Of a stretch of 64,000 bases of DNA, positions 3,792 through 36,433 are shown piece by piece. Source of the stretch: Candidatus Ozemibacter sibiricus (GTDB lineage Bacteria; Muiribacteriota; Ozemobacteria; Ozemobacterales; Ozemobacteraceae); contig QOQW01000008.1 of assembly GCA_003327425.1 (NCBI GenBank), forward strand, positions 1-64,000, in the 5' to 3' direction. Made by a program: the position numbers and the translations under genes. The notes beneath the pieces were generated by a model, which saw only the letters and a list, made by a program, of their open reading frames with translations, made no database searches and was not told the DNA's origin. Every line of letters starts with the position of its first letter. Positions within the stretch are counted from its first letter, which is position 1.

Positions 3792-3970
3792 GGCCATGAG
3801 CGGCGGGGAAACAGGCGGCATCAATGATCGCATCCGGTTGCGGCGGGGGATGATGGTTCGGTCAGTGCGAAGCACCTTTCGTGGAATGGCCTGGGCGGTC
3901 CGACCTGGGCCTCACGAATGGGCGGGGTTCTGCCGATACCTCGTCTGAGATTCGGCGCGAAGGACAAGGA

Positions 3971-5260
3971 ATGGGTGAATTGTTGACTCTCCACGATGTG
4001 CAGGTGTTCACCGGATATTGCCATCTCGGGAATTGCCGCGAGTTCGTCTGGGAAGGCGGCGACCCGGCCGCCGGTCCGTCGCGACCTGCCCGGTTCTGGC
4101 TGGTGGGCCTCCGGTGCATCGAAGATCTCGAAGCGCTGATGCTGCGCACCGACCTCTACCTGCATACCAGTGACCAACGCGAGTATCTGCTGGCCAACTT
4201 CCAGATCACCGACATTTCCGACCCTGAGAAGATTCGAGGCGTGGCCAGCGCGTGCCGCCTGCTCATGGAAGAGTTTCCCAAGATCAAGGGCATCCAGCCT
4301 GGTGAAAACGTGGTGATCTCGAAAGCCACCCACCTGCTGGCCTTCCGCACCGTCTCGGCCCTGGTCAGCAGCGCCCACACCAAATCCCATGTCGATCCCC
4401 GCGCCGCCAACGAGGTCATCAACGAACTGGTCGGCGAGATCATCAAAGCGCCGAATGCCGTGCTGAACCTGCTGGCCATCAAGCACACCGACGACTACAC
4501 CTTCAGCCACAACATCAACGTCGCCACCCTGGCCATGGTGCTGGGGCAGGCCCTGGGCCTCTCGCGCGACCAGTTGCACGACCTGGGCGCCGGCGCCTTG
4601 CTGCACGATCTCGGCCTCTTGCGGGTGCCCGGGCGCATCCTGCACAAAGAGGGGAAGCTGACTCCCGAGGAATTCTCGGAAATCACCCGCCATCCTCGGC
4701 TGGGGGTCGATCTGATCGGGCCTTCCCGCGATCTGTCGGCGCCGGCCCGCGAGGTCATCCTGCAGCACCATGAACGGTTCCAGGGCAAGGGGTATCCGCA
4801 CGGCCGGGCGGGCGATCGCATCCCACTGCTGGCCCGCATCTGCGCTGTCGCCGATGCTTTCGACGCCATGACCTCCGATCGTCCCTTCCGGCCGGCTCTC
4901 ACACCTTACCAGGCCATGCGCGCCATGCTGGCCCAGACCGGTACCCACTTCGATCCCGAGATTCTGCGGGTATTTCTGGGAAAACTGTCGCTCTACCCGC
5001 CCGGCACCCAGGTCATCCTGCAGGATGGCTCCCCCGCCGTCGTGGTGCGAGGCAACGCCGGCCTGCTGATCCGGCCGGTCGTTCGGCTGTTGCATCCTCG
5101 TCCGGGGCAGCCGGCCGTCATCGATCTGGCCCGCGACCGCACTCGCTTCATCATCGGGGTCGCGCCCGGCCCGGCTGGCGGGTCATCTTCAGCGACTTCG
5201 CCGACCTCGCCTCCCCCCTCATCCTCGCCGCCTTCTCCGGGTGGTCGGCGCAAACCCTGA
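3971..5260 (+). CDS. HD-GYP domain protein (probable cyclic-di-GMP phosphodiesterase)
   Basis: The protein has 429 residues from the ATG at 3971, which has an AAGGA Shine-Dalgarno sequence just upstream; the earlier in-frame ATG at 3881 has none. The N-terminal 160 residues have no motif I recognise. The HD-GYP domain follows, with FSHNINVATL, the HD pair in LLHDLGLLRVP (about residue 211), a conserved RHPRLG histidine, and HHERFQGKGYP (about 273), which contains the GYP signature, then DAFDAMTSDRPF. Such domains hydrolyse cyclic-di-GMP. A link to the PilB-type ATPase nearby (its MshEN-like domain resembles c-di-GMP-binding domains) is plausible but not shown. The C-terminus is Ser/Pro-rich. 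Confidence 0.88.
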   Translation: MGELLTLHDVQVFTGYCHLGNCREFVWEGGDPAAGPSRPARFWLVGLRCIEDLEALMLRTDLYLHTSDQREYLLANFQITDISDPEKIRGVASACRLLMEEFPKIKGIQPGENVVISKATHLLAFRTVSALVSSAHTKSHVDPRAANEVINELVGEIIKAPNAVLNLLAIKHTDDYTFSHNINVATLAMVLGQALGLSRDQLHDLGAGALLHDLGLLRVPGRILHKEGKLTPEEFSEITRHPRLGVDLIGPSRDLSAPAREVILQHHERFQGKGYPHGRAGDRIPLLARICAVADAFDAMTSDRPFRPALTPYQAMRAMLAQTGTHFDPEILRVFLGKLSLYPPGTQVILQDGSPAVVVRGNAGLLIRPVVRLLHPRPGQPAVIDLARDRTRFIIGVAPGPAGGSSSATSPTSPPPSSSPPSPGGRRKP

Positions 5261-6172: not shown

Positions 6173-8110
6173 TCAGCGGTCCTGCCTGGTCCCTCCGGTG
6201 GTCCAGGGGGCGGTGACCACGAAACGCATCAGGCGGCCGCCGGCATGATCGGAATACTTGCCCTCGCGGAAGAAAGGCGTGTCGAGGCCGGGAATGGCCT
6301 GCAGCTTGGGAAAGAGGTCGGTGAAGATCAGTCGGCTCTTCATGGTGGCTCCTCGCACCACCAGTTCGTCAGAGGTGTCGAGAGTGAACCCGTGCAGGAC
6401 CAGCCCGCGTTCGGCCTCGCTGAGCGGCCGATTCCAGGGCAGGTCGAGCCGGACCAGGAGGTCGGCCTGCCGTAGCAGGCGCGCGGTGACGTCCGGGCTC
6501 CCGTCGCGCAGGATGTACGAGAGCACCGGGCGGTCGGGAGGCTGGCATTCGAGGGCGATCTTCACGATGCCCTTCCCTTCGGCTCGCAGCCGTTCCAGCA
6601 GAGCGGGAATCTCGGAAAACTCCAGGCGGACGCTGATCTGCGGCCCGGCCTGCGTGACGGTGGTATCGATCTCTTCGCCGATGGCTACGCCGGGCGGCGG
6701 CGGACCGGGGGTGGTCCCCGGGGGGGGCGCCTGGCGGCCGAAGGCGACCACCATGGCGTTTCGCTCGAGGCTTTCGCGGCTCTGGGGCCCGAGGTAGGTC
6801 AGGCCCAGACTCTCGCCGACCGCTTTGAGCGACGTCACATCGGGTTCTCCACCGACCACCGCCAGCAGACGCAGGGTGCTGGACAGCCACAGGAGCTGCA
6901 GATGGCCCTTCAGCGCCGGCGGCCAGGCCGCGCCGAGCAGGCTTCCCACCTCGGGCGCGGGGAACCCCTGAGCCGCCCCCCGTCGTAGCAGCAGGGTGCA
7001 AGCCCAGGCCGCGGCCGGTGCGCCCGCCGAGGGTTCGCCTTTGGCCTCGAGCTTGACCAGCCCGCAATTGAAGCCGGTGCCCAGGATCTCTCCGACGGCG
7101 GCCCACTGGGAGCCCGTGATATCGAGGGTGGCCTGGATGAACCCCTCCTCTGCCGTCCCGCGGGGAACCGTGATCTCGCGCAGTCCGGCGGCTCCGGCCA
7201 GCGTTTTGAACAGGGCGATCAGCTCAGCGACGGCCATGCCGCCCGCCTGGTCGGTGCATTCGATGGTGAACAGCGGCTGGCCGGCGAAGTCGGTGCGGGA
7301 CAGGCTGCGCGACCAGCCCGGGAAGCCTTCTCGGGTCTGGGCCTCGAGCAGGTGGTCGAGGGCCGGGGCGATGAGCTGGAACTCGCTGGACCGGCCGGGC
7401 TCGACCCGGCAACCGAAGATCTGAGCCCCGGTGGGAGCCGGACCGGACATGGCGAAGAACGGCAGACGGGCGAGTTTCTGGAACAGGCTCTCCATTTCGG
7501 CCGGCATCGGGGCGGCCCCCGGGGCCAGGGCCAGGTCCATGGCGATCTTGAGGCGGGCCTCGCCCTGCTCGTTCAGATCGGGACGGGCGTTGAACGTCTG
7601 CAACTGTACGGACCAGCGACCGGCCAGGGCAGCGAGGAAGCTGCGCACCTGGGACAAGGCCGGGCTGCGCACCTCGACCTGCAGGACGTCCCGTCCCGCC
7701 GGGGCCACGGTCGAACGCCAGGTGCAGCGCAGGCAGTCGAGGCCGGCCTGGTCGAGCCGTTCCATGACCCCCGACAAGACGTCTTCCGACCGCCGCAGGG
7801 TCGAAACGGTTCCGGCCGCCCCTTCCGATGGCTGGCCGACGGCGAGGTCAGGCAGCAGCCCCAGGCCGATCAGGGCCCAGATCAACACCATGCCAGGGGC
7901 GAGGCGCGCCCGGCGGCGGCATTCGCCCGCGCTGGAAGCGTCGGTGGCTCGCCCCCTCCCCGCCGGACTGGCGGCCAGCCCGGCAGCCATGGCGGGCTGG
8001 CGCGGGTGCCCCCGCCTGACGGCGTCGGGCCGGGCAGCCGGTTCCCGAGCGCGTCCTTCGCTGATGGTCAGGGGGATGACCGACGTTCGGAACCCAGAGG
8101 CGGTTGGCAT
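6173..8110 (-). CDS. Secreted or anchored protein of unknown function in the PilB-type operon
   Basis: The protein (645 residues) starts at the ATG at 8110, which has a GGAGGGAG Shine-Dalgarno sequence 8-9 bases upstream. A long basic cytoplasmic N-terminus (about 75 residues) is followed by one hydrophobic helix, MVLIWALIGLGLLPDLAVG, so it is either membrane-anchored or exported. The rest is a set of alpha/beta segments that look like two or three diverged copies of one unit (for example VRSFLAALAGRWSVQLQTF and AELIALFKTLAGAAGLREIT). These faintly resemble the PilO/GspM ferredoxin-like fold, but this is an impression only. It sits between the PilB-HATPase gene and the pseudouridine synthase, and position suggests a role with the secretion ATPase. 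Confidence 0.6.
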   Translation of the reverse strand: MPTASGFRTSVIPLTISEGRAREPAARPDAVRRGHPRQPAMAAGLAASPAGRGRATDASSAGECRRRARLAPGMVLIWALIGLGLLPDLAVGQPSEGAAGTVSTLRRSEDVLSGVMERLDQAGLDCLRCTWRSTVAPAGRDVLQVEVRSPALSQVRSFLAALAGRWSVQLQTFNARPDLNEQGEARLKIAMDLALAPGAAPMPAEMESLFQKLARLPFFAMSGPAPTGAQIFGCRVEPGRSSEFQLIAPALDHLLEAQTREGFPGWSRSLSRTDFAGQPLFTIECTDQAGGMAVAELIALFKTLAGAAGLREITVPRGTAEEGFIQATLDITGSQWAAVGEILGTGFNCGLVKLEAKGEPSAGAPAAAWACTLLLRRGAAQGFPAPEVGSLLGAAWPPALKGHLQLLWLSSTLRLLAVVGGEPDVTSLKAVGESLGLTYLGPQSRESLERNAMVVAFGRQAPPPGTTPGPPPPGVAIGEEIDTTVTQAGPQISVRLEFSEIPALLERLRAEGKGIVKIALECQPPDRPVLSYILRDGSPDVTARLLRQADLLVRLDLPWNRPLSEAERGLVLHGFTLDTSDELVVRGATMKSRLIFTDLFPKLQAIPGLDTPFFREGKYSDHAGGRLMRFVVTAPWTTGGTRQDR

Positions 8111-8169
8111 GGCGATGTCTCCCTCCCGCCCGGTGGCCAGCACGGTCGCCCGGGCGATGGCGAGCGCCG

Positions 8170-11100
8170 TCAGGCGGCGGTCGCGAACTCCACGGTCACC
8201 AGGGTATTGGCCCCTGGGGTGCTTTTGACCGTCACCTGACCGTGGCAGGCGGTGATCAATCGACGGGTGACGGCCAGGCCCAGGCCAAGAGTCTTGCGGC
8301 CGAAGGACTGGAAGGGGGTGAACAGGCGAGGCTGCAGGTCGGCGGGAATGCCGCAGCCGTTGTCGAAGACGATCAGTTCGACGAGGCCTCGCGCGTTGGG
8401 TTTGAGCCGGGTCATGAGTTTGATCTCGCCTCCCTTGGGCAGAGCGGTCAGGGCGTTGACCAGCAGGTTGGCGGCGATGACCCGGAAGGCCGCCGGGTCG
8501 ATCAGGACGGGAGGCAGCGTTTGCAGGAGGTTCTTGGTGACCTTGAGGCCCTGCCCGATGTCGGGGCGGCCGGACAGCAGACGGGCCACGATGACGAACT
8601 GCTTGAGCTGGCCCAGGATCTCCTTGTCGACCAGCTCGTTCAGGTTGAACGGCCGGGGCTGCAGCCGCAGGTCGGAGAAATGATGGACCAGATTCTGGAG
8701 GTTGAAGTCCATCTTCTGGCTCTGCGCCTGGATGAGGGGCAAGGCCTTGCTGACATCGCCGCCGGCGAGGCCGGAAGCGACCTGCGCCTGGATGTTGGCC
8801 AGCGGATCGGTGAGATTCTGCTTGAGGATCTCGCTTTCGATGGTGGCCATGGGGGTGCCTTCTCCTCCGGCCAGGCGCTGCAAAGCGGTGCGGAAGGCCT
8901 GGATCTCCTGGGTCAGGGTGCCGATCTCGGGGATGGCGACGCCGGTTGGCGGCGGTCCTTTGGCCGCGGCGGTGGTCGCCGTCCCTGCGCTCGCGCGGTT
9001 GCCGCCTTTGGCGCCGCCACCGCTGCCCTCGCCGCTGCCGCTGCCGGCTTCGAGGGTGGTGCGATGGATCTCCTCGACAGTGGTTCGCTTGGTCAGCAGT
9101 TTGTAGATGGCTGACTCGCGCAGCGAGAGCATGCCCTCGGCGAGGGCGACCGCCCGCATCTCCTCCGTGTTGGCCTTGGCTTCGACCAGTTCGCGCATGC
9201 GCTGGGTCATGACCAGGACTTCATAGATGCCCTGGCGCCCTTTATAGCCGGAATTGTCGCAATCGGGACAGCCGGCGCCCTTGGCGAAGGTGAGATTGGA
9301 CAGATCGAGGTCGGTGAGGCGCAGTTTCTGCAGCAGGGCCTGATTGATGCCGAGCGACAGCAGAAGGTCTTCCTGGGGCTTGTACTCGGTGTAGCAGGAT
9401 TTGCAGATCTTGCGGACGAGACGCTGAGCTTCGACCACGCGCACCGAGGTGCTCAGGCTGAACGGTTCGATGCCCATGTTCAGCAGGCGGGCCACGGTGG
9501 ACGGAGCGTCGTTGGTGTGCAGGGTGGAGATGACCAGGTGGCCGGTCATGGCGGCCTTGATGGCGATGCTGGCCGTCTCGAAATCGCGGATCTCGCCGAT
9601 CATGACGATGTTGGGGTCCTGGCGCAGGAAGGAACGGAGGGCCGCCGCGAAATCGAGACCGATATCGGGATGGCACTGCACCTGGTTGATGCCCATCAGG
9701 TTGTACTCGACCGGATCTTCGGCCGTCATGATGTTGACAGCGGGGTTGTTGAGCAGGAACAGCGAGGAGTACAAGGTCGTCGTCTTGCCCGACCCGGTGG
9801 GGCCGGTGACGAGGACGATGCCGTTGGGCTGCTTGATGCCCTCCATGAATTTCTCGAGCACGTGCGGCTCGAAGCCCAGGTCGTTGAGGTTGACCCGCAG
9901 GTTGCCCTGATCGAGCAGGCGGATGCAGACCTTTTCCCCCCAGATGCAGGGAATGATCGAGACGCGCATGTCGACCTTGCGGTTCTGCAGCGTCAATTTG
10001 ATGCGGCCGTCCTGCGGCAGGCGGGTCTCGGCGATGTCGAGGTTGGCCATGACCTTGATGCGGCTGACCAGTCCGGCGTGGGCCGCTTTGGTCGGCGTCA
10101 TGTGCAACCGGAGCATGCCGTCCTTGCGCATCCGCACCCGCAACTCGTTCTCGAAACACTCGATATGGATGTCGGACGCATTCATCTGGACGGCCTGCGT
10201 GAAGATCAGGTTGACCAGCTTGATGATGGGAGCGTCGTTCTCGCTGAGTTCGCCGAGCCCCTCGAGATCGTCTTTGGCCTCGCTGCCGGTCTTGCCGACC
10301 TGGTCGGCCAGGGCATCGACGCTCTCGCCGTAGAGCTTGCCGAGCGCGGCCATGATCGACAGTTCGGAGCTGACGACCGGCGAGATGCGCATGCCGGTCA
10401 TCATCTCGATGTGATCGATGGTGATGATGTCGGTGGGGTCGGTCATGGCCAGGATCAATTTGTTGTCCTCGCGCTTGACCGGGCAGAGGATCTGATCGTA
10501 GCACAGCTTCTTGGGCAGCAGGGTGGCCAGGCCGGGGTCGACCAGGCTCTCGTCGAGGTCGACGAAGGGGAGGTCGAACTGCTTGGACAGGGCGATCGAC
10601 AGCTGCTTGTTGGTCAGAAACCCCTTTTTGACCAGGTAGGCGCCCAGACGCAGCTTGTCTTTTTTGCTGCCTTCGATGGCTTCTTTGAGCTGTTCTTCGG
10701 TGATGTACTTGGCATCGATCAGGATGTCGCCCAGGCGCTTGCGGGGCCCTTTCTTGCTGGATCCGGCCGGTTTCTTGGTCTCGGTGAGACGGGTGATCTT
10801 CTTCTGCCAGGGTTCGAGGAGGATCTTGCCAGGTCGCATGGCCAGCGGGCCGGTCGCCAGCGAGGCCAGCAGGTCGGCGTTGGCGGGGGCGAGCATGCCG
10901 ACCAGCAGCTCGGGGCCGTTGAGCTTGACGGGGATGATCTTGTGCTCGACCATCACCTCGACCTTCATCAATTTGAGGACTTCGCTGGGGATCTGGATTT
11001 CGTCGAGATCGAGGAAGGGGACGTTGAGCAGGGTCGCCTCGATTTCGGCCAAGAGCCTGGGGGTCAGGCCCGGCCGCGTGGCGATGGCTTTGATCAACTC

Positions 11101-11247
11101 GGCCGGATCGGTCTTCTCCTTGCGCAGGGCATCCCACTCCTCTTTGGCCAGGATCTTCTGATTGCGCAGCAGAACGCTGAGCTTCTGCAGATCGTCGGGT
11201 TTCTGCGGGAAGGCGGGGAAGTTCTCGAGGAAGACGGCTTCATCCAT
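8170..11247 (-). CDS. PilB/GspE-type secretion ATPase fused to a histidine-kinase-like ATPase domain
   Basis: This 1025-residue protein is far longer than normal PilB or GspE (about 500-600). Residues about 60-150 and 165-260 resemble GspE N-terminal/MshEN domains; the second has RLGAYLVKKGFLTNKQL...ALSKQ, like the cyclic-di-GMP-binding MshEN motif. The ATPase core is complete: Walker A GPTGSGKTTTL (Lys488), Asp box TAEDPVEYN, Walker B NIVMIGEIRDFETA, His box ISTLHTNDA, and a zinc tetracysteine (CKSC, CPDC). After a Gly/Ser/Ala linker (about 740-780) comes a histidine-kinase-like module. It has a DHp-like helix with Gln810 at the phospho-acceptor position (QNLTDPLANI), an N box AANLLVNALTAL, a G1 box DNGCGIP, an F box LFTPF and a G2 box GLGLAVTRRL. 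It is co-transcribed with the TPR gene 48 bases upstream and starts after AGGAGGG. Confidence 0.9.
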   Translation of the reverse strand: MDEAVFLENFPAFPQKPDDLQKLSVLLRNQKILAKEEWDALRKEKTDPAELIKAIATRPGLTPRLLAEIEATLLNVPFLDLDEIQIPSEVLKLMKVEVMVEHKIIPVKLNGPELLVGMLAPANADLLASLATGPLAMRPGKILLEPWQKKITRLTETKKPAGSSKKGPRKRLGDILIDAKYITEEQLKEAIEGSKKDKLRLGAYLVKKGFLTNKQLSIALSKQFDLPFVDLDESLVDPGLATLLPKKLCYDQILCPVKREDNKLILAMTDPTDIITIDHIEMMTGMRISPVVSSELSIMAALGKLYGESVDALADQVGKTGSEAKDDLEGLGELSENDAPIIKLVNLIFTQAVQMNASDIHIECFENELRVRMRKDGMLRLHMTPTKAAHAGLVSRIKVMANLDIAETRLPQDGRIKLTLQNRKVDMRVSIIPCIWGEKVCIRLLDQGNLRVNLNDLGFEPHVLEKFMEGIKQPNGIVLVTGPTGSGKTTTLYSSLFLLNNPAVNIMTAEDPVEYNLMGINQVQCHPDIGLDFAAALRSFLRQDPNIVMIGEIRDFETASIAIKAAMTGHLVISTLHTNDAPSTVARLLNMGIEPFSLSTSVRVVEAQRLVRKICKSCYTEYKPQEDLLLSLGINQALLQKLRLTDLDLSNLTFAKGAGCPDCDNSGYKGRQGIYEVLVMTQRMRELVEAKANTEEMRAVALAEGMLSLRESAIYKLLTKRTTVEEIHRTTLEAGSGSGEGSGGGAKGGNRASAGTATTAAAKGPPPTGVAIPEIGTLTQEIQAFRTALQRLAGGEGTPMATIESEILKQNLTDPLANIQAQVASGLAGGDVSKALPLIQAQSQKMDFNLQNLVHHFSDLRLQPRPFNLNELVDKEILGQLKQFVIVARLLSGRPDIGQGLKVTKNLLQTLPPVLIDPAAFRVIAANLLVNALTALPKGGEIKLMTRLKPNARGLVELIVFDNGCGIPADLQPRLFTPFQSFGRKTLGLGLAVTRRLITACHGQVTVKSTPGANTLVTVEFATAA

Positions 11248-11295: not shown

Positions 11296-12714
11296 TCAGC
11301 GGGTGGGCTTGCCCGACAGGTGGCGGCGGGCGATGGCGGCGAAGGATGGGCGCAGGCCGAGGTTCAGGGCCTGCTGAAGATGCTGAGCCGCCTTCTTGAC
11401 CGCTTTCTTGCGGTAGAGCATGCCGAGCTGGTAGTGGGCATCGGCATACCGCGGGTTGAGGTCCAGGGCTTGCTGCAGGTGTTTTTCGGCCGCGGCTTTC
11501 TTGCCCAGCTGCAGGTGGCACATGGCCATCCAGTAGAGGGCGTCGGGGTAGTTCGCATTCAGGGCGGCAGCCTCTTCGAAATGGCGCAGGGCCTCTTTCC
11601 AGAGCCCATCTTCGAAATACCGGATGCCCAGATTGATATGGCTGGCCGCCATGTCGAGGTCGAGGACGGCGAGCTTCTTCAGTTCATGGAGGGCTTCTTC
11701 CTGGTAGTCTTCTTTGAGGAGGGATTCGAAGGCTCTATAGGCCGGAGATTGCGTCTGCTTCTTGCGGATCACCATTTCTCGGAAATGCTCGATGGCTTTG
11801 GGCAGCGCTCCTTCCAGCTCGAAGATGGTGCCCAGGTAGAAATGGGCGGCGATCAGGTTCGGATTCTTGGCGAGCACCTCGGACAACAGGCTGCGGGCTT
11901 CGTGGATGAACCCGCGGAACAGCAGGGTCTTGCCCAGGGCGAGCCCGATGTCGAGGTAGGTCGGATGCGCGTAGTATTCCTGGCGCAATCGGGTGATCTC
12001 GGCATCGAGAGCCTGGATGCGCGCCTTGACATTCTCGAGGTTGCGCCGGATCACCCGCGACTGGGGCGCTCGGCTCAGGGCTTCTTCGAAGATCTCGACA
12101 GCATCGTCGAGACGGTAACTCTGCATGTTCAGGGCGCCGAGATTGTTCAGGATGCGGACATCGTCGGGGGCGAGGCGGCGGGCTTCCTGGAACTGCTCTT
12201 CGGCGATCTTGAACAGGTTGCGAGAGAGGTAGACGTTGCCGAGATTGTTCAATACCTCGGGATCGCGAGGGTACAACGCCCGGGCACGCAGCAGGGTGTT
12301 CTCGGCTTCGGTCAGACGCCCCAACCGCCGCTGGATGCTCGCCATCACCAGCAACAGGGGCTTGGAATCGGGGACGATCTGATCGGCCTGCCGGAGCTTC
12401 TCGAGGGCGGCTTCGGGGCGGCCTTGCCGCAACAGGTGCTCGACCTCGGCCGAGAAGGAGCGTGCCCCGTCGACGATCAGCTGTTCGGAGAGCTGGACGA
12501 TCTGCTCATCGAACTCTTCTTCGATGAATGCCTCGAGCCGGCCGGCCACTTCCTCGCTCCGCTTGCGGGCAACCTCCAGGATGTAGCCGATGTTGGGGTA
12601 GGCCGGGTCGAGGCTCTGGACGATCCGGAACTCCTGGAGGGCCGCGGGGTAGAACCCGCCGCGGAAATAATGCAGCCCGCGGTCGAAGTGTTCTTCAGCT
12701 TCCTTGGAACTCAT
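11296..12714 (-). CDS. TPR-repeat protein, first gene of the PilB-type operon
   Basis: The 472-residue protein has no signal peptide and is made largely of tetratricopeptide repeats. Clear units include the ALQEFRIVQSLDPAYPN, LRRARALYPRDPEVLNNLG-like, AEEQFQEARRLAPDDVRI, ALRHFEEAAALNANYPDAL and AEKHLQQALDLNPRYADA segments. A possible coiled-coil stretch (about 225-245, KARIQALDAEITRLRQEYY) separates two repeat blocks. TPR proteins often act as assembly scaffolds (PilF/PilW-like pilotins for type IV pili), but without a lipobox this one is probably cytoplasmic. It is the first gene after a TTGACA promoter at 12761-12790 and precedes the PilB-HATPase gene by 48 bases. An AGGA lies 6-7 bases before the ATG. 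Confidence 0.85.
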   Translation of the reverse strand: MSSKEAEEHFDRGLHYFRGGFYPAALQEFRIVQSLDPAYPNIGYILEVARKRSEEVAGRLEAFIEEEFDEQIVQLSEQLIVDGARSFSAEVEHLLRQGRPEAALEKLRQADQIVPDSKPLLLVMASIQRRLGRLTEAENTLLRARALYPRDPEVLNNLGNVYLSRNLFKIAEEQFQEARRLAPDDVRILNNLGALNMQSYRLDDAVEIFEEALSRAPQSRVIRRNLENVKARIQALDAEITRLRQEYYAHPTYLDIGLALGKTLLFRGFIHEARSLLSEVLAKNPNLIAAHFYLGTIFELEGALPKAIEHFREMVIRKKQTQSPAYRAFESLLKEDYQEEALHELKKLAVLDLDMAASHINLGIRYFEDGLWKEALRHFEEAAALNANYPDALYWMAMCHLQLGKKAAAEKHLQQALDLNPRYADAHYQLGMLYRKKAVKKAAQHLQQALNLGLRPSFAAIARRHLSGKPTR

Positions 12715-12730
12715 GGCCGTCCTGGAGTGG

Positions 12731-12759
12731 TTGCCTCGGGGAAGAGTTGGTGATACAAT
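12731..12759 (+). promoter_or_regulatory. Promoter of the AAA+ gene
   Basis: TTGCCT (12731-12736), 17-base spacer, TACAAT (12754-12759). The ATG follows at 12824 with an AGGAGGG Shine-Dalgarno sequence, giving a leader of about 58 bases. It overlaps the divergent promoter of the TPR operon. Confidence 0.65.
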
Positions 12760-12760
12760 T

Positions 12761-12790
12761 CTTCTACTCCAGCCGGAATTGCCTTGTCAA
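12761..12790 (-). promoter_or_regulatory. Promoter of the TPR-PilB operon
   Basis: On the minus strand TTGACA (12790-12785), an 18-base spacer and TAGAAG (12766-12761) lie upstream of the TPR gene. The two divergent -10 boxes are separated by a single base, so polymerase binding at one promoter should exclude the other. Confidence 0.55.
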
Positions 12791-12823
12791 CGAGAAAAAC
12801 GTACCCCCCCAGGAGGGCCTCTC

Positions 12824-14248
12824 ATGGAATCCACGCCGGGAATCAAGATGAAATTCTGTGAATCCCTGGACCGGTTCGTCGCCATTCGGGCCTTCACGCC
12901 AGAGCAGAAGCAGCAGTTGTTCAAGAACATCAAGATCACCGACAAGAAGTCCTACAAGCGGTTGATCATCAATGCCTCCGTGGTCAACTACCTCGACGAG
13001 ATCGCCCCCCTGGTCTACGGCAACAACGAGTATCCCCTCCTCGGTGAGATCATCGAGCAGGAGTTGTACAACCTCTGCGTCAAGGTCAACCCGACCCTCG
13101 ACATCAAGGAAGTCACCATCCAGGTCGACGAGTCCCAGATGCCGGGAGCCATCCCCATGCTCGGACCCAACGCCACCGACGAGCAGAAGGCTCGGCAGCA
13201 GCGGTTCATGGAGATCGAAAACCACCTCAAGAAGCGGATCATCGGTCAGGATGAGGCCGTCACCGCTGTCTCCCAGGCCATCCGCAAGGCCAAGGTCGGG
13301 CTGAAGAACCCCCGGCGTCCGGTGGGCAGTTTCATCTTCGTCGGTCAGACCGGCGTCGGCAAGACCGAATTGGCCAAAGCCCTGTGCGAGTTCCTGACCG
13401 GCAACGAGAACGACCTCGTGCGCATCGATTGCTCGGAATACGCCATGAGCCATGAATACGCCAAGCTGATCGGTGCCCCACCCGGCTATATCGGGCACAA
13501 CGAAGGGGGGTATCTCACCGAGGCGGTCAAAAGCAAGCCCAACGGCGTGGTGGTGTTCGACGAGGTCGAGAAGGCGCATGAGAAGGTGCACAACCTGCTC
13601 CTGCAACTGCTCGACGAAGGCATTCTCACCGATAGCAAGGGCGAGACCGTCTCCTTCCGCGAAGCTGTCATCATCATGACCACCAACATCGGGGTGTCGG
13701 ATATCACCGCCGAAGAGAGTCGGCCCGGGTTCCGGGTCTCCGACAAGCCCGAGAAAGAAGCGGTTGCCGGCAAGATCGATGAACTGTCCCATGCCGAAAA
13801 GGTCAAGATCACCCGCAAGAGCCTCGAAAAGCGCTTCCCTCCAGAATTCCTCAACCGGATCGATGACATCATCGTCTTCCGGGCCCTGACCAAGGAAGAC
13901 AATCTCAAGATTCTCGACATCCTGCTGAACGAGGTGGCCGAGCGGGTGAAGAACCTGAGCATGCGCATCGAGTTCACCGACGAACTCAAGGCGTTCCTGG
14001 TCGATCAGGGCACCGACCTGAAATATGGGGCCCGTCCCCTGCGCCGCACCATCCATCGGTACATCGAGAATACCCTGGCCGAGATGATCCTCAAGGGCGA
14101 GACCTTCAAACAGGGCGATATCATCACCGCCAGCAAGGGAAAGGTGAACGGCGAGGACGTCGCCGAGTTCAAGGTCACTGGCAAGTTCGAAGTGCCGCCC
14201 CCCTCGCCGGTGCCCGCTCCGCCGCCGGCCGAAGCCAATAAGAAGTAG
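12824..14248 (+). CDS. Single-ring AAA+ ATPase related to ClpB/ClpA D2
   Basis: The 474-residue protein starts at the ATG at 12824 (AGGAGGG 6 bases upstream). Residues 1-115 form an N-terminal domain I do not recognise; no Clp N-repeat and no D1 ring are present. Residues about 125-345 are a Clp-type AAA+ module: RIIGQDEAV, Walker A GQTGVGKTELAKAL (about 177), pore-loop region GAPPGYIGHNEGGYL, Walker B VVVFDEVEKAH, sensor 1 TTNIG and arginine finger region FPPEFLNRIDDIIVF. The ClpB D2-small domain follows (YGARPLRRTIHRYIENTLAEMIL). No ClpP-binding IGF loop was evident, so a remodelling chaperone is more likely than a protease partner. It is divergent from the TPR-PilB operon. The tail is Pro/Ala-rich. 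Confidence 0.85.
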   Translation: MESTPGIKMKFCESLDRFVAIRAFTPEQKQQLFKNIKITDKKSYKRLIINASVVNYLDEIAPLVYGNNEYPLLGEIIEQELYNLCVKVNPTLDIKEVTIQVDESQMPGAIPMLGPNATDEQKARQQRFMEIENHLKKRIIGQDEAVTAVSQAIRKAKVGLKNPRRPVGSFIFVGQTGVGKTELAKALCEFLTGNENDLVRIDCSEYAMSHEYAKLIGAPPGYIGHNEGGYLTEAVKSKPNGVVVFDEVEKAHEKVHNLLLQLLDEGILTDSKGETVSFREAVIIMTTNIGVSDITAEESRPGFRVSDKPEKEAVAGKIDELSHAEKVKITRKSLEKRFPPEFLNRIDDIIVFRALTKEDNLKILDILLNEVAERVKNLSMRIEFTDELKAFLVDQGTDLKYGARPLRRTIHRYIENTLAEMILKGETFKQGDIITASKGKVNGEDVAEFKVTGKFEVPPPSPVPAPPPAEANKK

Positions 14249-26646: not shown

Positions 26647-29535
26647 TCAAGGTGTGGTGATTGGGACAAACGGTGGCGATGTGCCAACGGCTGGCGCCTG
26701 GAGGACGACCAGGGTCGCGTCGTCCTGGAGGGTTGCGCCGCCAGTCTGGTCCTTCCACCAGTGGAAAATCCGGGTGACGGAATCGGTCGCGGTGGCGCCC
26801 AGCAAGCCTGGCAATGCCTCGGCGGGGCGGTCGAAGCCGAGCGGCCTCCCATGCAGGGTCGTGGCTTCGATCACGCCGTCGGTATAGAGGACGAGAGCCG
26901 ACCCGCGTGACATCTCCACCGTCCATTCCCTCCAGGTCGTTCGGGTGCGAATCCCCAGGGGATAGCCGGAAGGTTCGAGATGGCGGGCCGTTCGCTCCGT
27001 GACCAGATAGGGGTAGCAATGCCCGGCATTGGACCAGCAGAGGAGCCCGGAGCGGGTGTCGACCACGCCGAACCAGCAGGTCATCAGCTTCTTCTGACGC
27101 AGGTGGCTTTTGAGGAATCCGTGCAGGAGGTCCAGCACGGCGGCAGGGGTTGGCCGCCCGGCCGGCACGGCCAGCAACGCCTTGGCCATGGCGACCACCA
27201 GGGCCGCTCCGACCCCGTGTCCGGAGACATCACCGACCACCAGCGCTACGGTCCGGTCATCGAGGGGAAAGAAATCGTAGAAATCGCCGCCGACCCGGGC
27301 GGCGGGCAGGCAGCGGCCTGCCACTTCCCAATCATTCTGGCGCAACGTACCGGCGGGGAAGAGATTCTCCTGGATGAGTCGGGCCAGTTCGAGATCGCCC
27401 AGGCCCTCCAGCATGGTGTTGAACGTGGTGGTCAAGGCCCCGAATTCGTCCTGGGCCAGGACCGGCAATTGCACGCGGAACTGGCGATCATGCAGGGCCT
27501 GGATCCCTTGACGCAGGTGGTCGATGGGGGCCAGGAAGCGTCGCGCCAGCAGCAGGCCCATGCTGGCCGACACCAGCAGCAGCAAGGCGGCCAGGCCGAT
27601 GAGCGGCCCGACTCCGCCGGGCTGGCGAGCCATGATCGCGCTCTGCGGCCGGACCAGGAACAGGAAGCTCTCGGCCAGATGCGTGCCTGGTATGCCGGTC
27701 ACCACGTAGGGGACTCGGTCCGGGCCATCGACTTGTACGCAGACCGGTTCTCTGGTGTGTTCCAGATGCCGACGGATCGGCTCAAGTCGTTCGATCCATG
27801 CCTTCGAATTCGGCAGGAACCTGTCGATTTTGGCCCAGATGAAGGGAAGGTCTCGCGGATCTGGGCACGGTTGCCTGGGGAGGATGGAACGAGCGAACTG
27901 GCCTTCCAGGTGGGGAGTAAGCCAGGCAAAAATCGCCAGCCAGGAAATCCGGTTGCCGCGTCGCAAGGGGACGATCAAGCTTTTCAACCCGGAATTGGCC
28001 AGCCGGAGATCGGCCAGATGGTCGACCGATAACCGCACTTGGCCTTGAAAGAGATCGGGATGGACCCCGTACAATTCAGCGGTGGCCGCGAACATCTGGG
28101 CTGCGCCCGACGAACGGGCGGCGACGGCTTCGCCGGTGAGGTCGCCGAGCAGGTGCTGGGCCTGGTAACGCAGCATGGTGGGCACGTAGTGTTCGCGCCA
28201 GTGCCAGGGGTGCCGGTCCGGGTACAGGTTGCGCCCTTCCCGGTCGACCAGCAGGAGCAGTTTCGGTCGATGCCGCCAGTCGAGGCGGGCCAGGGCCTGT
28301 CGCACCTGAGGCAGGTGCTCGGGGTCGGCCTGGGCGAGGGTGCGGCGGATGTCGGCGGTCAGGGCGCCCAGATACGCGAGAAACCGGCGATCGAGATCTC
28401 GCAGCAGGCTTTCTCGCTCGCGTCGGTCCTCTTGCCAGGCCAGCCGTGCGACTTCGCGGCGATACCCGTGCAGAGCCAGCCCCAGCAGGAAGAAGGCCGA
28501 CACCGACAACCAGCCGAGCAGGAGCCAGACCTTCCGACGGATCGAGAAGGGAAGGGTGGTGCCGCCTTCCGACAACAGCCAGGCCACCCCTGACAGGAGG
28601 GCCACCACCAGGAGCAAACCCTTGACAAAGCGGTTCAGCGCCTGTTCGCGTGCTTTCGCGGTCCGATCGGGGGCGGCGACCACCAGTCGAAGGATCGGGG
28701 ACAGGGCAACCTGACTCCACCAGATCCCGTGGAGGTCGAGGAGGGAACCCGTTTCTGCTTCCAGGCGGATCAAGGCTTCGGACAAGGAAGACCGGCCGGG
28801 GCCGGGCGAGAAGCTGCGTTCCGGTCGGGGCGCCCCCCGGTCGATCAGGCCGAACCACAGGTCGGGGAAAGTGTTTCTCCGGAGCGCCAGCCAGAAGCGG
28901 AAACACGCTTCCCGCCAGCCGCGGCGCTGGTGGAAGAAGGCCACCAGCAGGCCTTGGGCCGTGGCGCGACTGACCAGGACTCGGGTTCGTTCCGAGCGGA
29001 AGCAGGCGGGGACGAGCTTTTCCCGGATCTCCAGATCGTTCTGTCGACCGAACAAGGGCCCGAACAGCGAGCGATAGACGGCGGGAGGCCGGTCGATATG
29101 GCGCTCGGGCCGGTCCTGATGGGCGCGGTAGTCGAGGAAGAATGCCTGCCAGGCCGCGGGGTCTCCCGGCACCGGATCGGACAGATCATGAACCAACCGA
29201 CCCTGCCCGTCGAGATAGACGAGCGAGAACAGGCCCGGTTGGTGTCGGCGCAGCAGACGTCGGATCGTGGCGATGGCTGGCCGCGGATCCGGGTGCTGAA
29301 GGGCCGCGCGGGTCAGGTTGTTCAGAAAACTCCCCACTTCCTTGATTTCTCCGAACCGGATCTGCCAATGGGCCAGGAATTTTTCCAGGCGAGGTTTGAC
29401 CTGGCTGGCTTCGTGCTGGCGCATCTCCTCGGCCACCTGATGCGCTGTCCGCCACACGATGAGTCCGGGCAGGCCGAAGAAGACGGTGCAGAACGCCAGC
29501 CAGCGGGCGACCCGGAGCCAGAGCGACCCACTCAT
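26647..29535 (-). CDS. Dual-sensor HAMP-SpoIIE serine phosphatase (second of tandem pair)
   Basis: The 962-residue membrane protein begins at an ATG that overlaps the stop of the upstream paralogue (ATGA). Layout: membrane helix (about 10-30), extracytoplasmic sensor, a pair of helices near 330-385, a second sensor, a further helix, HAMP (from about 665) and a C-terminal PP2C/SpoIIE phosphatase. Catalytic motifs are intact: RVGGDFYDFF (about 748), VVGDVSGHGVGAAL, NAGHCYPYL, LVLYTDGVIEA and LQDDATLVVL. Such enzymes dephosphorylate phosphoserine on STAS-domain anti-sigma antagonists. A STAS protein is encoded at 62359-62709, though far away. The input signal is unknown. Confidence 0.88.
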   Translation of the reverse strand: MSGSLWLRVARWLAFCTVFFGLPGLIVWRTAHQVAEEMRQHEASQVKPRLEKFLAHWQIRFGEIKEVGSFLNNLTRAALQHPDPRPAIATIRRLLRRHQPGLFSLVYLDGQGRLVHDLSDPVPGDPAAWQAFFLDYRAHQDRPERHIDRPPAVYRSLFGPLFGRQNDLEIREKLVPACFRSERTRVLVSRATAQGLLVAFFHQRRGWREACFRFWLALRRNTFPDLWFGLIDRGAPRPERSFSPGPGRSSLSEALIRLEAETGSLLDLHGIWWSQVALSPILRLVVAAPDRTAKAREQALNRFVKGLLLVVALLSGVAWLLSEGGTTLPFSIRRKVWLLLGWLSVSAFFLLGLALHGYRREVARLAWQEDRRERESLLRDLDRRFLAYLGALTADIRRTLAQADPEHLPQVRQALARLDWRHRPKLLLLVDREGRNLYPDRHPWHWREHYVPTMLRYQAQHLLGDLTGEAVAARSSGAAQMFAATAELYGVHPDLFQGQVRLSVDHLADLRLANSGLKSLIVPLRRGNRISWLAIFAWLTPHLEGQFARSILPRQPCPDPRDLPFIWAKIDRFLPNSKAWIERLEPIRRHLEHTREPVCVQVDGPDRVPYVVTGIPGTHLAESFLFLVRPQSAIMARQPGGVGPLIGLAALLLLVSASMGLLLARRFLAPIDHLRQGIQALHDRQFRVQLPVLAQDEFGALTTTFNTMLEGLGDLELARLIQENLFPAGTLRQNDWEVAGRCLPAARVGGDFYDFFPLDDRTVALVVGDVSGHGVGAALVVAMAKALLAVPAGRPTPAAVLDLLHGFLKSHLRQKKLMTCWFGVVDTRSGLLCWSNAGHCYPYLVTERTARHLEPSGYPLGIRTRTTWREWTVEMSRGSALVLYTDGVIEATTLHGRPLGFDRPAEALPGLLGATATDSVTRIFHWWKDQTGGATLQDDATLVVLQAPAVGTSPPFVPITTP

Positions 29536-32438
29536 GCCGCGGCCCCCGTTTCGGGGGTGGGGGCTTGGCCGCGATGCTGCACGACCACCACCGTGACGTC
29601 GTCCCCCGGTGGGTCCCAGGCGGCCAGGCCATCGTGCCAGGCCAGCACCGCCTGCATGGTGGCGGCCGCCCCCGGGCGCACGAGCTGGGGAGCGGCTGCT
29701 TCCAGACGATGGTAGCCGATGCTTTCGCCATTGGCCATCGGGGCTTCGACCAGCCCATCGGAATACAGCAGCAGGCTCTGGTCGACGGCCCAGGGGAAGG
29801 TCGCATCGCCAGACCCGCGCAGTGTGGGGCGAAGGCCGAGCGGACTGCTGGGGCAACGCAGCGTGGTGATCCCCGACCGGCCAATCTGCAGGGGAAAGGG
29901 GTGCCCGCTGTTGGCCAGGGTCAGGGTCAGGGTGCGCAGGTCGAAGATGACGATCTGGCAGGTCATGACCCGCCGCTTCTGCAGCAACCGGTAGAGCACA
30001 ACATTCATGAGGTCCAGCATGGCCGCTGGCGCCTCGGGCCGCGCCGGGTGGCCGAGAATGGCCTTGGCCATCCCTACCACCAGGGCGGCGGCCACGCCGT
30101 GCCCGCTGACGTCGCCGATCACGACCAGCAGGCGGTCGTCGTCGAGCACGGCATAGTCGAAGCAATCGCCACCGACCTGGGTGGCCGTCCGGCAGATTCC
30201 CGCCACTTCCCAGGGCCCATGCGTGAGAGGGCCCGGTGGGAAGAGCTGTTCCTGCACGATGCGGGCCACTTCGAGATCGGCCATCTCTTCCAGCATGCGG
30301 TTGAACGCCTCGGCGAGCGCGCCGAATTCGTCCGGTTGGCTGACCTGGAGCCGGCGGGTGAAGATCCGGCGTTGCACCGCCTGGACGCCGGCGGTCAACT
30401 CCCCGATCGGCACCAGGAACGCCTGGGCGACCACGCTGCCCACCGTCACGCTGATCAGCAGGAAGAGCAGCCCGGCCAGGCCATACCGCCAGGCGATCTG
30501 CTGGATCTCGGCGCGGATCAGCCGGTCTCCCGACACCGCGACCAGATCGTAGGCCGTCAGCTCGGAGCCGCGCATGCCGGTCAAGAGGACCGCTCCTCCT
30601 GGCTCCTCCTCCTTGGCCCGGAGGCTGTGGAACGCCGAGCGGATGCGGCTGGCGAAGACCTGCCGTCGCTGCGCCTGGGGCGACAGGGGCAGGGAAAGCT
30701 CGGGCTGAAGCCGGTGGTAGGCGAACAGTACGGTATCGGTGAGGGTGCGCGCCGCGGGCAGCAGATGCTTCTGCAGGTAGGTCCATTCCAGGAGTTCCTG
30801 CGACCAGAGCATGACGGCTAGCAATTCGGCGCGCTGATCCCGCGTGAACATCGGTACCAGGGTCAGGAAGAGGCGGCTCAGGTTCATCTCGTAGAATCGG
30901 ATCTTTCCCAGATCGGCGGTGGCTCGCGACAGGATGAACCCCATGGCTTCCTCCAGCCCGGGGCGGGTGGTCGGGGCTTCTTCCCCCCTGAGGTTGGCCA
31001 GAATGGAGACGGCGGCCCGGGTGAACAAGCCGAGGTTCTCCCGATCGACGGCCCAGGTCAGGGGCGGGCGATGTTCGAACACCAGTCGGCCTTGGCGATC
31101 GATGAGGCGGAGCAGATTCCAGCCGAAGCGCGGGTGCAATGTGGTGAAAAACCTGTGCCCGCCTTGGGTCCGCCATGCCTCGACGGCCCCGCCTCCCCGA
31201 AAGAGATCATCGATGGTGCTCTCGATCTGCTGGATCATTCTGGGAAATCTGGCATCGAGCGAGCGCAGCAGAGTTTCGGCGCGATCGTGCAGGTCGGTCT
31301 CGAGCACCTGCCGACGGTTGGCCAGCTCCCGCCAGGCCACTGCTCCCATGATCAGAAGCGGAATGGCGGCGGTGTATCCCAACGACAGGATCAGGGTCTG
31401 GCGAATGGACAGGGTGAGCGGCGGCACGCCATGCATGATCAGCCACAGCCCGATGGCCAGCAGGGCCCAGAGGAACAACAGCAGGCGAAGGCCGAACGCG
31501 ACGGCCCGGCTGGTCGAACCCGGACGATCAGGCAGGCGGAAACGGGCTTCCACTCGGAAGCGGGGAGTCAGATCGCGGCGGGCGTGCAGGACTGGTCCTT
31601 GCCAGATCATTCCAGAAGGGGTCACCTGACGGAACGGGGGAACCGGGGGCCTGGCGCGGCCTGAAACGTGAGGGCGCGGCCATCGATTCGACCAGGGGCG
31701 GGAAGGCGCCGCGGCCGGCCGAGCCTGTGCTTCGCCGTCCTTGAGCTGCAGGTGGAACTCGGGGTGCCGCCGGGTCGCCCGCCGGAAGAGGTCGAGCAGC
31801 GGCAGGCGGGGCATTCCCCCTTCATGGCTCAGATGGACGATCATCATGCCCTGGTCGTGCGGGGCCGACAGGTAGAGGAAGGGGCGTTGGCCGCTGGGAT
31901 GGACCGGCAGGACCCGGCCGTGCCAGGGCCGATCGATGGGGGCCAGCGGGCCCAGGAACGCGGCGATGAAGGTGCGTTGGGCGGCCAGGTCATGGGGCTG
32001 GCCGGCGATCAGGCGGCGATAGTGGTCGACGAAGCGCTGGATCAGGAATCGGGGCGGTGGAGCGTCGCACAGATCGGGGATGGGCTGGCCGTGCCGGTCG
32101 ACGAAGGTAAAGGAATATACCCCGGGGAACCGGTTCCGGACCCCTTTGAGGACCGTCCGCACACGGTCGGGCCAGATCCCGGGCGTCGTGAACAGGTGCT
32201 GCTCCAATTGCCGGAGGAACCGGGTATGGAACAGGAGGGGGTGGCCGGCCGGTTCGAGACTGGAGAGGACCTGCTCCAGGGCTTGTTCGGCGCTGGTCCT
32301 CTGGCGGTGTGCCTCTTCTTCCCGCAGGAAGAGCAAGCCCGCCATGGCCAGCACCACCGGCAGACCTCCCAGCAATCCCGCTCCGAGGGCCCACCTGGCC
32401 CAGGAGAATCCGGTCGTGGCGGTTGAAGATCGGCTCAT
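29532..32438 (-). CDS. Dual-sensor HAMP-SpoIIE serine phosphatase (first of tandem pair)
   Basis: The 968-residue paralogue of the downstream protein has the same layout: membrane helix (WALGAGLLGGLPVVLAMAGL), sensor, helix pair near 305-370, second sensor, helix, HAMP (about 676) and SpoIIE phosphatase. Motifs are intact: QVGGDCFDYAVLDDDRL (about 754), VIGDVSGHGVAAAL, NSGHPFPL, LLLYSDGLVEA and GDDVTVVVV. The metal-binding aspartates are all present, so both paralogues should be active. The start is supported by a TATAAT box 7 bases upstream and absence of a Shine-Dalgarno sequence, so initiation is probably leaderless. Confidence 0.88.
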   Translation of the reverse strand: MSRSSTATTGFSWARWALGAGLLGGLPVVLAMAGLLFLREEEAHRQRTSAEQALEQVLSSLEPAGHPLLFHTRFLRQLEQHLFTTPGIWPDRVRTVLKGVRNRFPGVYSFTFVDRHGQPIPDLCDAPPPRFLIQRFVDHYRRLIAGQPHDLAAQRTFIAAFLGPLAPIDRPWHGRVLPVHPSGQRPFLYLSAPHDQGMMIVHLSHEGGMPRLPLLDLFRRATRRHPEFHLQLKDGEAQARPAAAPSRPWSNRWPRPHVSGRARPPVPPFRQVTPSGMIWQGPVLHARRDLTPRFRVEARFRLPDRPGSTSRAVAFGLRLLLFLWALLAIGLWLIMHGVPPLTLSIRQTLILSLGYTAAIPLLIMGAVAWRELANRRQVLETDLHDRAETLLRSLDARFPRMIQQIESTIDDLFRGGGAVEAWRTQGGHRFFTTLHPRFGWNLLRLIDRQGRLVFEHRPPLTWAVDRENLGLFTRAAVSILANLRGEEAPTTRPGLEEAMGFILSRATADLGKIRFYEMNLSRLFLTLVPMFTRDQRAELLAVMLWSQELLEWTYLQKHLLPAARTLTDTVLFAYHRLQPELSLPLSPQAQRRQVFASRIRSAFHSLRAKEEEPGGAVLLTGMRGSELTAYDLVAVSGDRLIRAEIQQIAWRYGLAGLLFLLISVTVGSVVAQAFLVPIGELTAGVQAVQRRIFTRRLQVSQPDEFGALAEAFNRMLEEMADLEVARIVQEQLFPPGPLTHGPWEVAGICRTATQVGGDCFDYAVLDDDRLLVVIGDVSGHGVAAALVVGMAKAILGHPARPEAPAAMLDLMNVVLYRLLQKRRVMTCQIVIFDLRTLTLTLANSGHPFPLQIGRSGITTLRCPSSPLGLRPTLRGSGDATFPWAVDQSLLLYSDGLVEAPMANGESIGYHRLEAAAPQLVRPGAAATMQAVLAWHDGLAAWDPPGDDVTVVVVQHRGQAPTPETGAAA

Positions 32439-33406: not shown

Positions 33407-34750
33407 TTACTTGTTCTTCAGTTCGGCGATCAGGTGGCGGACGCTTTCTTGCGTGGCGCTGTCGAAGCCGCCTTCGGTGAAGACCCGAAAGTTCAGCTTG
33501 TTGATCAGGTGGGCGCTGACTTCACGGTTGTTCTCGTTGGCAGTGGAGACGTAGGCCATGAGGGAGCTGAGGTCGCCGTTCTCGACATCGCTCACCACGG
33601 TAGCGGCGGTGGTCTTCTTGTAGTAGTCCTGGACCATTTCGTCCCACAGGGTGTCTTTGGCGAAGGCCAGATCGTTGTAGGGCGCCGAGAAGCTGTAGCT
33701 GCTGGCCGGGAAGTAGATGGCCAGGCCCTTGGCGTTCTTGGTGCTGTAGCCGCTGAGGCCGTTGGCGATGATCAGCTTGGCGCTGGCGGCGAGCAGTTTG
33801 TCGCACGCGGTCTGGAAGCCGGCATCGTTGACGGTGACCTTCAGCAGTTCGACGAAGTGGGGAAGGTCGATGTTGGTGCGGTAGTAGAACTTCTGTACTT
33901 TGTTCAGAGCATCTTTGAACTGGGGACCATAGTTGCCGGCCATGGCGGCCTTGGCGAAGCCGTCGACGGCGTCTTTGAAGGCTGCATAGTTCTTCATCTC
34001 GAGGGCGGACTGGGTGCCGGAGGAGCTGCCCTGGGACCCGCCGTTGTAGGAAGCGGCATAGGCCTTGACGATGTGGGCGGCGAACTGGGCCGGGGTGGTG
34101 GTCCTGGTCAGGCCGCTCAGCACGCCGTCATAGGGCCAGCCGGCGCCCGGCTCGACTTCTTCGGAGGCCACGATGTAATCGACGCCGGGTATCGCGTGGG
34201 CGACTTCGGCCATCTGCATGAGGCAGGCATCGAAGGCGAAGATGTCGATATTCTTGCCGAGGGCGGCCTTGATCTGCTGACAGGCGATGGTCAGCTGGTT
34301 GGTGGTGATGTGGTTGCCGCTTTCGTCATCGTAGGAGATGCCCTTGATGATCGCGTCGTGGCCGTCCTTCCAGCCGGAGCCGTGGTTCCAGGCGATGACG
34401 GCATAGTGTTCGGCCGGGTAGGCGGCGGCGGTGCTCTTGACGAAATCGACCAGGACGTTGTAATCGCCCATGTCGATCTCGCCCATCTCCTTGAGGAGGG
34501 TGATCTTGCCCTTCTCGATGTAGTTGAGGGTGGCGGGACCTTTTTCGCGGTCGATGAGAACGACGATGTTGGCGAAATCGGAACTGCCGATCTTGGCCAT
34601 CTCGTTCATGTCTTCCACGCCATAGGGGTCGAGATTGTTGTCGGCGTTCAGGAAGACCATGAAGGTCCATTTTTTGGGGGCGGCGTCGACCGGGGCGACC
34701 GCGCAAGCGACGACAAAGAACAGGACGGCAATACTCACTACACGCTTCAT
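33407..34750 (-). CDS. Clostripain-family (C11) cysteine peptidase, secreted (copy 1)
   Basis: The 447-residue protein from the ATG at 34750 (AAGGAG 6 bases upstream) has a signal peptide (VVSIAVLFFVVACAVAPVDA). The C11 fold follows: WTFMVFLNADNNLDPYGVED, the catalytic histidine in AWNHGSGW (about residue 122) and the catalytic cysteine in AFDACLMQMAEVA (about 173), then ASEEVEPGAGWPYD. C11 enzymes cleave after arginine or lysine and usually self-process. It should act outside the cytoplasmic membrane. It is a close paralogue of the gene directly upstream, and both end with the same type of helical tail (NFRVFTEGGFD). It has its own consensus promoter with an operator-like palindrome. Confidence 0.88.
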   Translation of the reverse strand: MKRVVSIAVLFFVVACAVAPVDAAPKKWTFMVFLNADNNLDPYGVEDMNEMAKIGSSDFANIVVLIDREKGPATLNYIEKGKITLLKEMGEIDMGDYNVLVDFVKSTAAAYPAEHYAVIAWNHGSGWKDGHDAIIKGISYDDESGNHITTNQLTIACQQIKAALGKNIDIFAFDACLMQMAEVAHAIPGVDYIVASEEVEPGAGWPYDGVLSGLTRTTTPAQFAAHIVKAYAASYNGGSQGSSSGTQSALEMKNYAAFKDAVDGFAKAAMAGNYGPQFKDALNKVQKFYYRTNIDLPHFVELLKVTVNDAGFQTACDKLLAASAKLIIANGLSGYSTKNAKGLAIYFPASSYSFSAPYNDLAFAKDTLWDEMVQDYYKKTTAATVVSDVENGDLSSLMAYVSTANENNREVSAHLINKLNFRVFTEGGFDSATQESVRHLIAELKNK

Positions 34751-34790
34751 CTTATACTCCTTACTGACTTCTGAGCTTCTCGATACTCGC

Positions 34791-34806
34791 CTGACCAATC
34801 GGTCAG
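34791..34806. promoter_or_regulatory. Operator-like palindrome in the C11 copy 1 leader
   Basis: CTGACCAATCGGTCAG has 6-bp perfect arms around a 4-base centre. It begins about 8 bases downstream of the -10 box, at the expected transcription start, where a bound repressor would block initiation. The shape resembles TetR-family operators. Confidence 0.5.
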
Positions 34807-34814
34807 ATACGGCC

Positions 34815-34843
34815 ATTATAGGCAGCGACCACCCGGCTGTCAA
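34815..34843 (-). promoter_or_regulatory. Consensus promoter of C11 peptidase copy 1
   Basis: On the minus strand a perfect TTGACA (34843-34838), 17-base spacer and perfect TATAAT (34820-34815). This is the strongest promoter in the window by match to consensus. The leader to the ATG at 34750 is about 58 bases. Confidence 0.85.
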
Positions 34844-34911
34844 CCAGCCGGCGGAAGAAACCACCGCCAACCCCGCTCACCTTCTGATGAACAGGGGGCA
34901 GTGGTCGTCGT

Positions 34912-36306: not shown

Positions 36307-36433
36307 GAGGGCGACTCCTTGTCTCCTTGTGCGCTTATGGCCCTCCGCAAAAGGAAGGGTTATTTTCATTTTACGGTTTCTTGGGGAAGAACGGAAGGTA
36401 CCTCTGCAAATTTTTTTGAATCTTGCGAGCGCG

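Follow-up and report, generated by a model that had tools for sequence, protein, structure and literature searches.

The gene considered here is made of two halves, each of a known kind; their join is not known to us, and no description of a PilB/GspE-HATPase fusion was found in the open-access literature searched (titles and abstract openings). The pilus-motor regulators that we know of (PilZ, FimX, c-di-GMP) are separate partners or act via N-terminal domains. In the c-di-GMP-regulated ATPases MshE, PilB and PilF, the MshEN domain carries tandem 24-residue motifs, RLGxx[LVI][LVI]xxG...LxxxLxxQ, separated by a 5-residue spacer (PMC5013675). For PilB of M. xanthus, a signalling role separate from its part in pilus assembly is reported (PMC5544727). 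On the kinase side, about 1% of kinases are substituted at the phospho-His, with Gln among the substitutes; the pseudo-histidine-kinase DivL of Caulobacter, which bears a tyrosine there, is a sensor that carries PAS and modulates CckA, and it is reported to bind phosphorylated DivK without modifying it (PMC5361649).

The fusion lies on contig QOQW01000008.1 of Candidatus Ozemibacter sibiricus (Riflebacteria, Ozemobacteraceae), within its first 64,000 nucleotides; this whole stretch is called the window below. The original prediction, made from the letters of the window, placed a PilB motor and a HATPase module in a single frame at 8170-11247 and gave no strand. The join is real and is encoded on the minus strand, as follows.

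8170..11247, minus strand: PilB-pseudo-histidine-kinase fusion, whole gene, 1025 aa from an ATG start
10744..11247, minus strand: extra N-terminal region before MshEN, aa 1-168, aligning in all complete homologues
10243..10743, minus strand: MshEN, aa 169-335 (PF05157; NF053729, 58 bits against a cut-off of 38)
9052..10242, minus strand: T2SSE/PilB motor, aa 336-732, with Walker A and B and the zinc tetracysteine (Pfam, TIGR02538, invariant residues)
8932..9051, minus strand: flexible linker, aa 733-772 (length, dN/dS, pLDDT below 50)
8659..8931, minus strand: lead helix and DHp-like hairpin, aa 773-863 (structure model, alignment)
8173..8658, minus strand: HATPase_c (CA) domain, aa 864-1025, with N, G1, F and G2 boxes (Pfam, alignment)

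By Pfam, MshEN scores 100 bits, with two stretches counted and the best alone located (224-309); residues 1-168 may represent a second MshEN-like unit. T2SSE is matched over 336-729 (449 bits) and HATPase_c over 917-1021 (66.7 bits, cut-off 26.4). The two helices of the DHp-like hairpin span 805-829 and 832-857, and the lead helix before them carries the invariant residues E781 and F785. The linker, counted over aa 733-775, varies from 36 to 67 residues in 21 homologues.

The motor half resembles PilB (TIGR02538; PDB 5tsg, 6olj, 5zfr, 3jc8) throughout MshEN and T2SSE: PilB structures are matched over 166-732 at about 530 bits. NCBIfam names the protein PilB, yet its scores against the equivalog model TIGR02538 fall on both sides of the cut-off of 675.65: 686.1 bits when the whole protein is scored in two stretches, 657.7 as one stretch. 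The motor was predicted to be complete, and the residues bear this out, with Walker A (482-489), the Walker B residue E552 and the zinc ligands C615, C618, C660 and C663 invariant in 19 of 19 aligned homologues. It differs from PilB by the additional 168 residues at the N-terminus and the DHp-CA core at the C-terminus. The genome holds 29 T2SSE matches; of 10 T2SSE proteins scanned by Pfam in addition to the fused one, none carries HATPase_c. One of the 10 is something that the original prediction missed, a separate, ordinary PilB of 580 aa; it scores 714 bits against TIGR02538 and shares 56.5% identity with the motor of the fused protein, so the fused protein is an additional PilB paralogue. 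It is read as a further PilB-type ATPase, predicted to serve in pilus extension. The ordinary pilB gene has a PilT-like T2SSE gene directly after it, unlike the fused gene, which is not beside pilT.

Other motors of this poorly studied phylum have been altered as well: its PilB/PilT ATPases have been expanded and rebuilt. A PilB paralogue of 1207 aa (L084:6141-9764, minus strand; G000:C45, about 159-163 kb) is lengthened at its C-terminus by about 600 aa in which Pfam finds no domain; versions of 1165-1178 aa occur in four further genomes (G006, G008, G019 and G020; loci L139, L141, L142 and L143), making this a second, different long PilB extension within the home family. A PilT-family ATPase of 963 aa (L093:6558-9449, plus strand; TIGR01420, 469.5 bits, cut-off 319.1) is fused behind HEAT repeats. 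TPR matches coincide with or immediately precede several PilB paralogues (L082, L083, L085), much as a TPR gene precedes the fused one.

The C-terminal part was claimed to hold a DHp-like helix and a full HATPase_c domain; it proves to be a complete DHp-CA core that has lost its phospho-His and conserved its ATP site. Modelled alone from a 19-row alignment (pLDDT 77.6), it shows a lead helix, a pair of DHp helices and the CA fold, and Foldseek matched it to whole kinase cores. In VIA-align 2 the top match was DivL (4q20_A; Z 21.8, rmsd 3.9, 216 aligned), and HK853 (6rgy_B; Z 21.3, rmsd 3.0, 209 aligned) ties with it. The model of the whole protein is of too low quality to serve as evidence (pLDDT 57.4, pTM 0.33), and for this reason contact between kinase core and motor is not seen. 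The closest sequence matches of the CA domain are sensor kinases of the NtrB/AtoS/ZraS type (PDB 1r62, 9jfj), at 86.6 bits for AtoS and 46.8 for NR(II), far under the cut-offs of these families; the core is probably of NtrB/AtoS type. It differs from such kinases in having neither a phospho-His nor a sensor domain.

A histidine kinase has a DHp-CA fold, the N, G1, F and G2 boxes and a phospho-His within H-E/D-x-x-x-P. The fold is present in the model and the boxes are present throughout the home family (f1), while the phospho-His is missing. Residue 810, in the place of the His of H-E-x-x-x-P-L, is Gln as predicted, and the usual acceptor is lost. The Gln itself, for which it was suggested that homologues be inspected, is not conserved: among 21 family members the column reads Q in four, S in four, H in four, A in three, K in three, N in two and M in one. 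All four His rows come from a single genus (g11), and the residue that follows is N or H, never an acid. Another conserved His in the helix, proposed as the point on which the lost acceptor might founder, was looked for across residues 773-1025. The His columns occupied in at least six of the 21 rows are 783 (11 rows), 848 (6), 856 (15) and 884 (16); none is invariant, and a conserved His elsewhere was dropped as candidate acceptor. From these residues, the core should be unable to autophosphorylate in the usual way.

The ATP site, by contrast with the acceptor, looks as intact as had been thought: N927, N931, D962, G964, G966 and G988-L989-G990-L991 are invariant in 21 of 21 f1 rows. ATP binding is not universal in the wider set, because in a related family, f7 (four genomes), the G1 glycines are lost and the HATPase_c scores of 16-23 bits fall under the Pfam cut-off. 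In DHp helix 2, Q842, Q844, K845, N849 and N852 are invariant and look like a retained surface.

A pseudo-histidine-kinase of the DivL kind has a histidine-kinase fold without phospho-His, as the fused core does, and binds a response regulator. The likeness to DivL lies in the whole DHp-CA fold and the substituted phospho-His. DivL differs in being a sensor with PAS domains, whereas the fused core sits on a motor, and its substitute is a tyrosine, whereas the residue varies in the fused family. The reading that we prefer, and to which we would give an even chance, is that the C-terminal part is a pseudo-histidine-kinase serving docking and regulation while tethered to a motor for pilus extension; DivL is the nearest precedent worked out in detail, and M. 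xanthus PilB sets one for a PilB that signals. A complete kinase core (DHp hairpin plus CA), fused onto the C-terminus of an extra PilB paralogue, would be held on the hexameric motor by the flexible linker; the DHp hairpin would bind a partner, in all likelihood another kinase or a response regulator in its phosphorylated form; and the CA domain, moving with its nucleotide state, would report partner binding to the motor, or recruit the motor to a site in the cell. ATP binding, partner docking and coupling to the motor are inferred, and that the partner is a response regulator is a guess by analogy with DivL. Counting against the docking reading, no response regulator or kinase gene occurs among the conserved neighbours scanned; the G1 glycines are lost in f7; and the poor full-length model shows no contact of the core with the motor. 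The pilus motor may in this way have a signalling module built directly into it. A covalently joined motor and disabled kinase core, found lineage-wide, offers a ready system for testing how a pseudo-histidine-kinase fold is used without phosphotransfer, and whether two-component signals can act directly on a motor.

A second perspective, possible and clearly less probable, dispenses with an outside partner and supposes a self-contained allosteric clamp or ATP/ADP sensor. That is, the CA domain would bind nucleotide, DHp hairpins would pair between neighbouring subunits, as the DHp hairpins of kinases dimerise, and ring symmetry or hexamer stability would follow the energy charge of the cell. 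The invariance of the ATP-site residues in all 21 f1 rows agrees with this, as does the N-box Asn, aligned with that of NR(II), which suits binding over hydrolysis. However, the f7 versions keep the domain despite their lost G1 glycines, and the linker is long, disordered and weakly constrained, which suits a tether better than a rigid clamp.

Somewhat less likely again is an active kinase working in trans, with the CA domain passing phosphate to a His, or to some other residue, of a separate DHp or HPt protein or of a pilus-machine subunit. In f1 none of the N, G1, F and G2 boxes is lacking, which speaks for the original suggestion that the module phosphorylates another protein; but GHKL Ser/Thr kinases of the SpoIIAB/RsbW and BCKDK type use as general base a Glu four positions ahead of the N-box Asn, and the fused family has Asn927 at this catalytic-base place in 21 of 21 rows, which weakens it. 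Moreover, no acceptor partner occurs among the conserved neighbours scanned, and the domain is degenerate in f7.

Might the core be a relic, a once-active kinase on PilB that is now decaying or retained only as structure? The loss of His as a conserved feature everywhere, and of part of the G1 box in f7, could be so read; the pattern of selection makes it improbable. Pairwise dN/dS (Nei-Gojobori, seven pairs; linker computable in five) is 0.03-0.13 in the motor, 0.026-0.211 in the DHp-like part and 0.054-0.263 in the ATPase domain; it is 0.34-0.79 in the linker. The kinase-like part is thus maintained by purifying selection while the linker drifts. Values of 0.03-0.26 across DHp and CA, together with ATP-site residues invariant across f1, do not fit decay.

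The distribution of the fusion was followed by searching its C-terminal 250 aa against 39 genomes of the phylum. Of the 24 home-family genomes, 21 carry it; the three misses are genomes 64-70% complete. Besides the source gene, 18 complete f1 homologues have open frames of 1023-1059 aa, and two more are cut by contig ends; identity to the fused protein is 53-91%. In family f5 an intact fusion occurs in two of three genomes (1044-1046 aa, HATPase_c 41-42 bits), and in the third the frame ends near a contig end, ahead of the ATPase domain. All four f7 genomes have it, at 975-990 aa, with the degenerate domain described above. The homologues thus keep the C-terminal domain, whose absence from them had been named as a ground for doubt, and assemblies independent of the source span the join with the frame open, as the proposed check asked. 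That assembly or gene calling joined two genes has practically no chance of being true: the draft status of the source genome (58 contigs) speaks for it and nothing else, and an assembly error is excluded by the same single frame in these separate f1 genomes, complete or contig-cut, with conserved neighbours, and by the fusion in two other families.

Beyond these three families, no fusion was found among the matches listed for eight genomes of families f2, f3, f4, f6 and f8; the check took in 10 loci, that is, nine listed frames of at least 900 aa with a motor match above 110 bits plus G031:C177 (725 aa); five other listed frames of at least 900 aa have weaker, PilT-like matches. A scan of contigs found the fusion region at 18 of 21 loci; as its patterns are exact peptides, it reaches close relatives only. 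Among plasmids (tblastn), none of the 5000 records listed covers 80% of the query at one place. A Deltaproteobacteria contig led to 99 genomes of another phylum, where PilB open frames reach 902 aa among the matches listed; in the three of these frames that were inspected (902, 820 and 780 aa) all the extra sequence is N-terminal.

A single origin of the f1, f5 and f7 fusions is favoured, not shown. With an IQ-TREE mixture model on the motor half alone (29 rows, picked from the 70 of FastTree), the 12 fused rows form one clade, sister to ordinary PilB, with support of 92/89 (not starred). FastTree, with 70 rows, instead groups the f1 fusions with ordinary PilB (0.988). Compared by profile, the C-terminal parts of f7 match f1 with 98.3% homology probability over 235 columns and those of f5 with 99.1%, a level that generic kinases might also reach. 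Synteny was considered as proof of one fusion event and dropped. By tblastn, the neighbours of the home locus were not found beside the f5 genes; at the f7 loci tblastn gives weak TPR and ClpB matches only, and the ClpB match is not used because ClpB there is the full-length protein.

Control by c-di-GMP through the MshEN-like domain had also been suggested. Motif II (200-223) is strict and intact, which keeps the idea alive; motif I (171-194) is degenerate, with Lys for the turn Gly and Ser for the ligand-contacting Gln, and in this the fused protein departs from MshE, PilB and PilF, whose tandem 24-residue arrangement and 5-residue spacer it otherwise shares. With one motif intact and the other degenerate, c-di-GMP binding is unsafe to infer, and is best called possible on the motif pattern. 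The ordinary f1 PilBs scanned (L102-L131) show the opposite arrangement to that of the fused protein (10579-10737, aa 171-223), with motif I strict and motif II not.

Two co-directional genes flank the fusion.

11296..12714, minus strand: TPR protein, 472 aa, directly upstream across a 48-base gap; in 18 of 20 loci
6173..8143, minus strand: downstream gene, listed at 656 aa and evolving fast; similar sequence in 14 of 20 loci

No scanned neighbour reaches a pilus-family cut-off; the TPR protein scores 109.6 to PilW (cut-off 154). The 656-aa protein may start later than listed, to judge by hydrophobic sequence around residue 84, and has no Pfam or NCBIfam family above cut-off; a PilO-like identity judged by eye was dropped, as Pfam at E 5 gives a sub-threshold DUF4381 only. 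Beyond it lies a pseudouridine synthase gene in 17 of 20 loci. Divergent and upstream, at 12704-14248 on the plus strand, is a ClpB-D2-like AAA+ gene (514 aa) whose only domains are a ClpB D2-type one and D2-small; across 17 of 20 loci its product keeps 75-91% identity, a stronger conservation than that of the adjoining genes. An HD_5 (HD-GYP-like) protein is encoded about 3 kb from the fused gene (3881-5260, plus strand), and is beside the fused gene in one of 20 loci (L039). Farther along the window, on the minus strand, are a large HAMP-SpoIIE protein of 1509 aa (26647-31176), two adjoining clostripain-like (Peptidase_C11) genes (33407-36369), and a pair of listed frames that overlap and carry HAMP and guanylate-cyclase domains (40411-46565).
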